From positions 106,421 through 170,420 of the forward strand of contig WHTV01000001.1 of NCBI GenBank assembly GCA_009377535.1: DNA of 64,000 bases, written 5' to 3'. The position numbers and the translations under genes are program-made. This DNA is from Kiloniellaceae bacterium. Its GTDB lineage: Bacteria; Pseudomonadota; Alphaproteobacteria; Kiloniellales; Kiloniellaceae. Position 1 is the first letter of the stretch. The number at the start of each line of letters is the position of its first letter. A model generated the notes under the pieces. The model saw nothing but the letters and a program-made list of their open reading frames with translations. It was not told where the DNA came from and did no database searches. Shown in pieces: positions 2,773 through 35,151 of this stretch.

Positions 2773-3441
2773 ATGGTCAAGAAACCCTCTGCGCGAAAGC
2801 GCTCCGGCAAAGCTTCTGCCAAGAAGGCTTCGGCTAAGGATTCTGGCAAGGCGGCGGCCGCGGACACCCCCCGGCACATCATCGACACCGCCTTCGTGCT
2901 GGTGCTCGAGCGCGGCTGGCGCGGTCTTTCCCTGGCGGAAATCGCCGAGGCGGCCAAGCTGCCGCTGTCCCAGGTCTACCCGCTGTTTCCCTCCAAGCAG
3001 GCGATCCTCGACGGTTTCACCGACAGGGTCGATGCCGAGATGATGGCGGAGGGCGCCGAGGACCTGGACAGTCCCGCCCGCGATCGCCTTTTCGACATGC
3101 TGATGCGCCGTTTCGACGCTCTGCAGCCGTACAAAGAGGCCCTGGGAATCATTCTGCAGGACCAGCTGCGTGACCCCCTGGCCGCCTGCTGCGGGCTCGG
3201 CCGCCTGGCGAGGTCCATGGCGACGACCCTGGAGGCCGCCGGCTTCTCCACCACCGGCTGCCGCGGTGTCTTGCGTCTGAAAGGGCTCTCGGCGATCTAC
3301 CTCTCGGCCATCCGGGTCTGGCTGCGCGACGACAGCGAGGACATGGCCAAGACCATGGCTCATCTGGACAAGCAGCTCGCCCGCGTGGACAACCTGGTCG
3401 GCCGGCTCAAAAGCTACCGGCCGCGCCGCGCGGCCGCCTGA
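2773..3441 (+). CDS. TetR-family transcriptional regulator next to phasin gene
   Basis: 222 aa. A Lys/Ala/Ser-rich tail (residues 1-30) precedes a TetR helix-turn-helix (HIIDTAFVLVLERGWRGLSLAEIAEAAKLPLSQVYPLFPSKQAIL) and an all-helical ligand or dimer domain. A good ribosome site AAGGAGG lies about 11 bp before the ATG. The gene sits directly upstream of a phasin gene on the same strand, an arrangement repeated in alphaproteobacteria, so control of storage-granule genes is a fair guess. The ligand is unknown. Confidence 0.82.
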   Translation: MVKKPSARKRSGKASAKKASAKDSGKAAAADTPRHIIDTAFVLVLERGWRGLSLAEIAEAAKLPLSQVYPLFPSKQAILDGFTDRVDAEMMAEGAEDLDSPARDRLFDMLMRRFDALQPYKEALGIILQDQLRDPLAACCGLGRLARSMATTLEAAGFSTTGCRGVLRLKGLSAIYLSAIRVWLRDDSEDMAKTMAHLDKQLARVDNLVGRLKSYRPRRAAA

Positions 3442-32037: not shown

Positions 32038-32184
32038 CTACAGCAGCGGGGCAAAGAGCAGCAGGCCGGCGGCGATGCCGACGGCGACGAAGGCGGCCAG
32101 AAACAGCCGCTTCAGGCAGCGCCTGAGGGCGCTGCCCTTGGCCAGGGGCTGGTGGCGCGTGATCAGCGCCGGATCAAACAGCAT
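32038..32184 (-). CDS. Small single-pass membrane ORF downstream of sortase
   Basis: Too short for the ORF track. It encodes a 48-aa product, MLFDPALITRHQPLAKGSAL then RRCLKRLFLAAFVAVGIAAG and LLLFAPLL. A basic stretch precedes one clear transmembrane helix of about 20 residues that ends at the C-terminus, so a tail-anchored or small accessory protein is expected. It begins 5 bp after the sortase stop on the same strand, which suggests translation with it. I do not recognise the family. Confidence 0.6.
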   Translation of the reverse strand: MLFDPALITRHQPLAKGSALRRCLKRLFLAAFVAVGIAAGLLLFAPLL

Positions 32185-32189
32185 TCACG

Positions 32190-32870
32190 CTACAAGGCGC
32201 CATTGGGGATACCTTCTCCTGGTTGGATCCCCCCGGACAAGTCTGTGGAAAGGGCCGCTCCCCCGAGCGGCAGGTGGCTTTCGGCCGGCGGCATCCCCGC
32301 CTCCGCCGTCACCGCGTAGCGCAGCGGCCCGCCGGGATCGACGGCATCGAAGGGATAGCAGGTGACCAGGGTGAGCAGCTCGCCCGTCTCGGCCCTGCGC
32401 GCCGTCACCGGGTGGCGCACGTCGATCACCTGATGGCCGCGCACCAGGTAGTCGCGCCAGGCGCCGCTGCGGTCCTGCAGCTGCAGGCGGCTGCCGTCGG
32501 CCAACTCGCGCAGGAAGGCGAAGTGGGTGTCGCGGTGGCCGCTGAGGATCCGATGGCCGAGGCCGGCAGTGCCCGACACCACGGCGGGGCCGAAGGCGAG
32601 GCTGCGGCCGCTGGCGCCCGCCAGCACGTAGAGATCGACGCCGAGTTCCGGCACCTTGAGGCGCGCCACCGGCCAGGTATCGGCCCAGGGCCAGGGCTTC
32701 GCCTGCTCCGCTCCGGCCAGGGTCTCGGTCCACGCGCGCTCGAGCAGGCGCTGGGCCAGCCACGCCTTGCCGTGGATGGCGGCGGCCCCGCCGAGCTGCC
32801 ACAGGCCGAGGGCCAGGGACAGCGCGGCGAGGCCAAGAAGGGCCCGGTTGAGGGTTAAGGTCCTAGCCAC
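32190..32870 (-). CDS. Sortase, marine proteobacterial type
   Basis: 226 aa from a GTG at 32870 that overlaps the end of the VIT/VWA gene by 8 bp; the ORF-track extension is the shadow of that gene. One N-terminal membrane helix (LTLNRALLGLAALSLALGLWQLG), then the sortase barrel with H112 (ILSGHRDTHF), C171 (LTLVTCYPF) and R184 (PLRYAV), the transpeptidase triad. It should cut the LPQTA signal of the neighbouring protein and join it to an unknown acceptor. This Gram-negative sortase class is known from marine proteobacteria. Confidence 0.9.
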   Translation of the reverse strand: MARTLTLNRALLGLAALSLALGLWQLGGAAAIHGKAWLAQRLLERAWTETLAGAEQAKPWPWADTWPVARLKVPELGVDLYVLAGASGRSLAFGPAVVSGTAGLGHRILSGHRDTHFAFLRELADGSRLQLQDRSGAWRDYLVRGHQVIDVRHPVTARRAETGELLTLVTCYPFDAVDPGGPLRYAVTAEAGMPPAESHLPLGGAALSTDLSGGIQPGEGIPNGAL

Positions 32871-35151
32871 TATGGCCTGTCCGGCACTGGCGGCGCAGCA
32901 CCAGTAGGACCAGCAGCAGGCCCAGCAGCAGGTAGGCGCCGCCGAGGATCGCCATGCGTTCAGCCGGCGTTGCCGTCTGCGGCAGGGTGATGGCCTGGCC
33001 GTCGGCCGCCGCGGCCCGCTGCAGCAGCGGCGCCGGCAGCGCCCACTGGCGCATTTCGGTAGAGGCGGGGGCCGGACTCTCGGCTGTGCCCGGGTGGCCG
33101 AAGACCTTCCCGGCATCCCAGCCGGCCGGCAGGTCGCGGGCGATCTCCTCGCTCTGCAGGTTCTCGCCCTGAGGCCGGGCCACCGCGTCGTCGATCGCCA
33201 CCAGGGCGGTGTAACGGGTGACCAGTCCGTGATCCAAGGCCAGGGCCAAGGCCTGGGCGCGGATCGCCGCCTGGTCGGTTTCCGGCCCGCTTCGGTAGAG
33301 GCCGTCCTCGATCTGCACCAGCTTGGCGCGGGCCCAGACCGCGGCGACGCCCGGCGCCGCGGTGAGCTCGCTCAGCGCCAGGCGCTGTTGCCAGGGGCCG
33401 TCGGCCGCGTTGCCGATGATCAGCAGCTGACCGTCGAGTTCCTTCAGGTCGACGCCTTCCAGGCGCGCCGCGAAGGTGACCGGCTCGCCGGCGTAGAGGT
33501 CGGGCAGCGGCGTCGGATAGAGCTCGATGCGCTTGCCGGCGGTGAGCGGCCAGCCGACCCGGATTTCGGTCAGCGCCGGCTGCTCCAGCTTCGCCAGCAG
33601 GGCGTCCATGCGCGGCTTCACCTCGCCGAGGTCGCCGATGTGGGTGAAGCTGCCGCGGCCGATCTCGGCCGCCTTGCGCATGAAGTAGCTGTTGGGGGCC
33701 GAACCGATGCCGACGGTGAAGAGACGCTGTGCGCCGAGCTGGCCGGCCACCTCGCGCAACAGCTCGTCTTCGTTGCCGACCGCGCCGTCGGTGAGGAAGA
33801 CCACCTGCTGCAGGTGACTCTCGGAGGGCGCGGCGCCAAGCGCCAGCTGCAGGGCGGGGCGCATCTCCGTGCCGCCCTCGGCCTCGAGCGCGCTGACGTA
33901 GTGCCAGGCCTTGGCTGCGTTGGCGACGGTGGCGGCGACCGGCTGCGGGAAGAGGGCGTGGGTCGTGCTGTTGAACTGGATGACGTTGAAGCGGTCCTCG
34001 GGCCGCAGCCGCTTCAGGGCGGCGATCACTGCCGCCTTCGCCTGGTCCAGCGAGTCGCCGTGCATCGAGCCGGAGGTGTCGACGACGAAGACCAGCTCGC
34101 GCGGCAGCGGGGTCGCCAGTGACCCGGCCTGCAGGGCCGGCGGCACCATCATCACCAGAAGGTGGGCATTGGCGCCGACCTGCTCGGCGAAGACGGCGGC
34201 TTGCGGGCTGTCGGATGCTTTCGGCGCCCACTCCAGCACGAAATCGCGGTCGGCCGGTACCTCACCGTCACGCAGGATCACGGTCTGGCGGTTGCCGGTG
34301 CCGGTCTCGATGGTCACGGGATGGTAGAGGCTGCGCAGCGAGGCCAGCGGCAGGCCGGCGTCGAGCTCGACGGTGAGCGACAGCAGGTTGTGCTTGTCAC
34401 CGTCGGTGTGCACCGGGCCGAAGAGGTCGCCGTCCTCGCCGGAGGTCCCGGTCGCAGCCACCGGATCGATGGCGGGCTGTGGTGCCGGTGCCTCAGCGAT
34501 GTCGGGCTGGGGTTCCGGGGTGTAGCGCGGCGCCACCACCATGGGGAAACGCAGGGCGAAGGTGCCGTTTTCATAGGCGACGGCGTCCTGGAAGCCGATC
34601 TCCACGGTGATGCTTTCGCCGGGGCCGATGTTGGCCACCGCGGTGACGAAGACGTTGGGCCGCTCGCCGCTCACCAGGCTGGCGCGCTGGCCGTTGTCGG
34701 CCGCCGCGCGGTAGGCGCGCTCGGCCTCCGCCTTTTCCATGATGCGGCCCTCGACGCGGCGCTCGCCGATGGTCATGGTCAGGCGGTCGACGGCGGAACG
34801 CTCGGGCAGCGGGAAGACGTAGATGCCCTCCAGCCAGCGGTCGCTCGGGTTGTGGAAGACCTGGCGCACCGTGGCCCGGGCCACCATGCCGTTCACCGCG
34901 ATGGCGACGTCGCTCTTCAGGATGGGGGCCTCGAGCACCGTCCCGGCCTCGCCGCTGCGGAAGAACAGGCCGGCCGGGGTCTCCGCTTCCGCCGCCTGGG
35001 CCGGCAGGGCGCGGACAGCGAGTGCGGCCAGCATGACCAGCACCGCCAGCACCAGGGTCCCGGCGATCACCAGGACGTTGTGGAGGACCGTCCTCCCAAG
35101 GCGCGACGGGAAGGCGCTGTAGACATGCTGTGGCGGCAGGTGGTGTGGCAT
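32863..35151 (-). CDS. VIT/VWA-domain sortase target protein, marine type
   Basis: 762 aa. After a long N-terminus with a signal helix (VLVIAGTLVLAVLVMLAALAVRALPAQA) come a VIT domain (AVNGMVARATVRQVFHNPSDRWLEGIYVFPLPERSAVDRLTM) and a VWA domain with an intact MIDAS (VFVVDTSGSM, STTHALF, TDGAVGNEDEL). The C-terminus is a sorting signal: LPQTA at residue 723, a hydrophobic helix and basic RRQCR. It is the likely substrate of the overlapping sortase and would be displayed in the periplasm or outer surface; adhesion through a metal site is the usual VWA role. Confidence 0.9.
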   Translation of the reverse strand: MPHHLPPQHVYSAFPSRLGRTVLHNVLVIAGTLVLAVLVMLAALAVRALPAQAAEAETPAGLFFRSGEAGTVLEAPILKSDVAIAVNGMVARATVRQVFHNPSDRWLEGIYVFPLPERSAVDRLTMTIGERRVEGRIMEKAEAERAYRAAADNGQRASLVSGERPNVFVTAVANIGPGESITVEIGFQDAVAYENGTFALRFPMVVAPRYTPEPQPDIAEAPAPQPAIDPVAATGTSGEDGDLFGPVHTDGDKHNLLSLTVELDAGLPLASLRSLYHPVTIETGTGNRQTVILRDGEVPADRDFVLEWAPKASDSPQAAVFAEQVGANAHLLVMMVPPALQAGSLATPLPRELVFVVDTSGSMHGDSLDQAKAAVIAALKRLRPEDRFNVIQFNSTTHALFPQPVAATVANAAKAWHYVSALEAEGGTEMRPALQLALGAAPSESHLQQVVFLTDGAVGNEDELLREVAGQLGAQRLFTVGIGSAPNSYFMRKAAEIGRGSFTHIGDLGEVKPRMDALLAKLEQPALTEIRVGWPLTAGKRIELYPTPLPDLYAGEPVTFAARLEGVDLKELDGQLLIIGNAADGPWQQRLALSELTAAPGVAAVWARAKLVQIEDGLYRSGPETDQAAIRAQALALALDHGLVTRYTALVAIDDAVARPQGENLQSEEIARDLPAGWDAGKVFGHPGTAESPAPASTEMRQWALPAPLLQRAAAADGQAITLPQTATPAERMAILGGAYLLLGLLLVLLVLRRQCRTGHSG

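Follow-up and report, generated by a model that had tools for sequence, protein, structure and literature searches.

A gene of 48-50 codons, encoding a predicted single-helix membrane protein, directly follows the gene for a class GN sortase in genomes of Pelagibius (family Kiloniellaceae) and, to judge from how its sequence has been conserved, is a real gene rather than a chance open reading frame. Tentatively, and with somewhat less than even confidence, it is proposed to be the third gene of a target-sortase-small-protein operon, kept by selection because its product serves as an accessory helix, stabilising the sortase or keeping it in position, and is neither a substrate nor an acceptor. 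The status of the gene, its position, its conservation and the predicted helix are read from sequence; from these we infer the function. In the protein-family libraries consulted, the gene is undescribed, the small protein having no match in Pfam or NCBIfam. The literature searched yielded no experimental work on class GN sortases, and we know of neither an acceptor nor a means of control for these enzymes. Because the small gene appears coupled to the sortase throughout a genus in which type strains are in culture, it lends itself to a simple genetic test.

Organization of the target-sortase locus

The locus lies on the minus strand of the window (that is, the whole stretch of 64,000 nucleotides that was analysed, which comes from a 4.4-Mb draft genome). 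The sortase target (35151-32863, minus strand; 762 aa) has a signal peptide, VIT and VWA domains and a C-terminal sorting signal; it scores 724 bits against TIGR03788 (cut-off 551.65), matches the Pfam VIT and VWA models as well, and ends in LPQTATPAERMAILGGAYLLLGLLLVLLVLRRQCRTGHSG (followed by the stop), a sorting signal of the form LPQTA--helix--RRQCR. The sortase (32870-32190, minus strand; GTG start, 226 aa, with an N-terminal anchor helix) scores 196.3 bits against TIGR03784, 'class GN sortase' (cut-off 158.25), and 69 bits against Pfam Sortase, and the catalytic H, C and R are present in its sequence, within GHRDTH, TLVTCYP and GGPLRY. The two proteins belong to already known families and, by sequence, the enzyme is a class GN sortase with a dedicated adjoining target, its transpeptidase activity being putative. 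The locus thus resembles other TIGR03784/TIGR03788 pairs in having adjacent genes that both exceed the curated cut-offs and a single LPQTA target, but differs from them in its added small third gene, which is absent in other lineages. A target-site search covering LPQTA and LPQGA forms found 28 other sites in the draft genome, none of which has a sorting tail; an LPQ pattern search gave 88 matches versus 52 in the reversed control, and hence most of these matches are due to chance. Another genome of the same order (G057) harbors two class GN sortases, on contigs C80 and C73.

The target and sortase genes overlap by 8 nt (32863-32870) and, following a gap of 5 nt after the sortase stop (32185-32189), the small gene (32184-32038, minus strand) encodes the 48-residue product MLFDPALITRHQPLAKGSALRRCLKRLFLAAFVAVGIAAGLLLFAPLL. 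This geometry, the form of the target's C-terminus and the assignment of the pair to a known type had all been given by an earlier, first-pass annotation of this DNA, and each was borne out here. No promoter or terminator distinguishable from shuffled sequence was found at the locus. A possible ribosome-binding site, GGAGAAGG (32212-32219, minus strand), lies within the sortase gene, near the 3' end; it sits 27 nt upstream of the small ORF's ATG, which is far for a normal site of this kind, and in one of the two Pelagibius clades (clade A) a related purine-rich block, AGGAAAGG, occurs 12-13 nt upstream of the ATG. From this arrangement we infer translational coupling of the small ORF to the sortase gene. 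A continuous fusion with the sortase, or a frameshift into it, was rejected, because the small ORF's ATG in the window comes right after an in-frame stop codon and because the offset between the two genes varies between species.

The small protein consists of a basic segment followed by a C-terminal hydrophobic helix, in line with the earlier description of one basic segment plus one membrane helix: four basic residues (R21, R22, K25 and R26) precede the hydrophobic stretch, and an AlphaFold model based on a seven-row alignment predicts a single helix spanning residues 15-44 (mean pLDDT 76, with blocks 21-40 at 89-93). Given basic residues ahead of that stretch, the N-terminus is predicted by the positive-inside rule to be cytoplasmic, and only about 2-4 residues would extend into the periplasm. 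Both ends of the protein are invariant among orthologues--MLFDP at the start and LFAPL at the finish--as are PL, GS, LRR, R26, G36, A39 and L41, and a small-xxx-small motif, G36xxx[A/G]40, is kept in all of them.

Conservation, coding and distribution

The Pelagibius set comprises eight genomes, including those of P. marinus and P. litoralis as well as Pelagibius MAGs. The sortase is present in all eight, and the small ORF follows it in each of the seven that have sequence there (G000, G001, G002, G003, G005, G006 and G007), the contig of the eighth (G004) ending inside the sortase tail. The orthologues are 48 or 50 residues long and start at -11 nt (G003, G005), +5 nt (G000, G002, G007) or +18 nt (G001, G006) relative to the sortase stop. 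When 63 genomes of the order were searched with a profile, strong matches occurred only adjoining the sortase; the match in one of these, the sister MAG G012 discussed below, is not independent, because the profile included the G012 sequence, and the unvarying adjacency within the genus partly reflects inheritance, inasmuch as the genus has one common ancestry. The small gene is conserved although a hypervariable stretch stands just before it: in the alignment across the genus, the sortase tail following the catalytic domain (32193-32297 in the window; 3329-3440 in locus L039; also in L037 and L038) ranges from 27 to 67 aa and, in G003, G004 and G005, is made up of short repeats in tandem (with a unit of 15 bp and 7.5 copies in G005).

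Several lines of evidence indicate that the ORF codes for protein. Within clade A, synonymous substitution in the small ORF is about five to ten times faster than non-synonymous substitution, with omega values of 0.11 for G001-G003, 0.10 for G003-G006 and 0.21 for G001-G006 (Fisher P = 6.5e-7, 3.4e-10 and 3e-4, respectively); these are close to the omega values of the sortase core for the same three pairs (0.16, 0.45 and 0.26). Between clades the small ORF's omega is 0.33-0.70, and within clade B, which contains the window, it is 0.60-0.75 and not significant; hence it is clade A, together with what is conserved between clades, that carries the case for coding. DNA alignment scores inside the ORF reach z values of 9 to 26, and in 19 of 21 pairs conservation begins at the ATG and drops to about zero past the stop codon, the two exceptions being a very close pair (G003-G005) and a pair that shares uvrB directly downstream (G000-G007). 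That the ORF is untranslated--an accidental open frame or an RNA element--is very improbable: pairs from the window's own clade, taken alone, lack significant purifying selection, as such a reading would have it, but two clades separated by synonymous distances of 0.45-1.5 share the start, the stop and the length of the ORF as well as 21 invariant residues, and together with the synonymous excess in clade A this largely refutes it.

Beyond the genus the picture changes. When a profile built from Pelagibius sequences only was run against 289 sampled genomes of the class, the single match was the window's own copy, with none in the 288 others. No homologue was found at 73 class GN sortase loci outside the clade (at five of which an unrelated hydrophobic ORF occurs nearby), nor beside the sortase in related genera of the family and order, where, moreover, no hydrophobic ORF follows the sortase save in one chance-like case lying over a terminator. 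Family-wide, wherever contigs reach, genes for an aminotransferase, the target and the sortase and then uvrB follow one another within a few kb; the sortase locus is therefore an old one, and the small gene, which lies between fixed neighbours, is specific to its lineage.

A possible exception is G012, which is the sister of Pelagibius in a quick FastTree tree of target plus sortase when the root is set on other families (support of 0.92 for the relevant split). Its sortase is followed by a 52-residue ORF that overlaps the sortase stop as ATGA, has one C-terminal helix and carries LLFGPLV near its end. In segment-preserving shuffles its similarity to the Pelagibius proteins gave P of about 0.05 for three of four queries and 0.27 for the fourth, and a model built from six Pelagibius sequences did not find it. 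The ORF is a possible homologue and would be consistent with a gain in an ancestor shared by the two lineages, but its sequence similarity is marginal. The distribution as a whole suggests that the small gene was present in the ancestor of Pelagibius and is restricted to that genus plus one doubtful sister case.

The first-pass annotation was thus right to expect a conserved small ORF behind the sortase in relatives, which exists throughout Pelagibius, yet its wider suggestion of a missing partner for this type of sortase in general fails. The gene was added within one lineage, and class GN sortases elsewhere go without it; therefore it cannot be the general missing piece, a role that the 73 outside loci and the relatives within the order rule out.

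Possible functions of the small protein

The proposed accessory role can be laid out as follows. The small gene would be co-transcribed with target and sortase, and its product would be made by coupling to sortase translation and inserted with its N-terminus in the cytoplasm; the helix could then pack, through G36xxx[A/G]40, against a membrane helix of the sortase or of the arriving target, and so stabilise or position the enzyme--for example, by shielding the sortase anchor helix from proteases or, alternatively, by holding the sortase where the LPQTA signal is presented. Against this role stands the fact that class GN sortases elsewhere work without such a protein.

A suggestive trace of the small protein may be seen in the sortase itself. 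At the membrane boundary (site WQLGGA, 32784-32801), the residue following WQLG at the outer end of the anchor helix is G in 9 of 9 members of the clade with the small gene; among the 55 others, 45 have Q, E or H there. This substitution is no more than suggestive, because it represents one evolutionary event and because the total of clade-specific sortase columns (6, versus 4-19 in control groups) is not unusual, so that co-adaptation of the sortase was rejected. The sortases of loci L094 and L105 also have GG at this site but lack the small gene. A bolder reading, which is improbable, holds that Gram-negative sortase systems recruit lineage-specific micro-proteins as membrane subunits and that the Pelagibius protein of 48-50 residues (and the 52-residue one of G012) has become a required sortase subunit, with the anchor helix's widely conserved polar residue (Q/E/H) giving way to G in this clade.

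The most serious alternative to the accessory helix, itself unlikely, is that a selected membrane protein merely shares the operon and acts without the sortase, in membrane stress or with another partner. Selection and position establish a gene, not a partner, and any interaction with the sortase is putative; but the small gene is never found away from the sortase, and the overlap or very short spacing has persisted even though the sortase tail, like the sequence downstream, has diverged. It is decidedly improbable that the protein acts as an inhibitor or timer, made last so as to limit target cleavage once the sortase suffices: its place as the final gene of the operon, coupled to the sortase, would suit such a role and its anatomy would be identical to that of an accessory helix, but sequence does not tell inhibition from stabilisation. 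Hardly credible is the idea, raised in the first-pass annotation, of an anchor acceptor--a membrane protein, encoded beside the sortase, to whose amine the cleaved target would be joined--because the orthologues of G002 and G007 have no lysine, the single lysines of the others are not at a conserved place, and the predicted N-in topology leaves only those few terminal residues in the periplasm; the gene's absence from nearly all genomes with a class GN sortase argues against it as well, and the role was set aside in view of the lysine content and the predicted topology.

Comparison with described accessory proteins

An accessory of the same sortase type, PdsO, occurs in other proteobacteria, and NCBIfam holds a model for it (pdsO, TIGR03789); the earlier statement that no accessory subunit is known is therefore right only in part. 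In this order none of 63 genomes exceeds the TIGR03789 cut-off and the only matches are generic, sub-cut-off OmpA matches, so that PdsO was set aside as an accessory here. PdsO is like the proposed role of the small protein in being an accessory beside a class GN-type sortase, but is a much larger, OmpA-type protein.

From work by Ramirez et al. in 2022, SafA is reportedly a small membrane protein that is encoded next to a sortase and was proposed to protect it, and it is said to carry an FPW motif. The Pelagibius gene likewise adjoins a sortase gene, in seven of seven genomes with sequence there; the differences are that the SafA system involves a Gram-positive housekeeping sortase, that FPW is absent from all six distinct Pelagibius small proteins and that no homology is shown. 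A title cited in PMC11389406 describes SafA as an actinobacterial, sortase-linked signal-peptidase antagonist. Possible small-x-small cleavage sites occur in sortases both with and without the small gene, and SafA-like protection by way of altered cleavage sites was rejected, there being no difference under the signal-peptidase rule.

A parallel in form is offered by CydX, CydY and CydZ, small single-helix proteins encoded in cytochrome bd operons, where lineages differ in which small protein they carry and where the function of CydX has been established experimentally (PMC4325964). The Pelagibius protein is also small, single-helix and encoded with a membrane enzyme; the enzyme is a different one, however, there is no sequence relation, and its function, unlike that of CydX, is deduced rather than experimental.

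Small ORFs of other kinds also occur behind class GN sortases in two unrelated proteobacterial MAGs: at locus L137 a lipoprotein-like ORF of 61 aa (-4 nt relative to the stop of the sortase gene, a 4-nt overlap), and at locus L092 an ORF of 54 aa with a signal-like helix (+19 nt).
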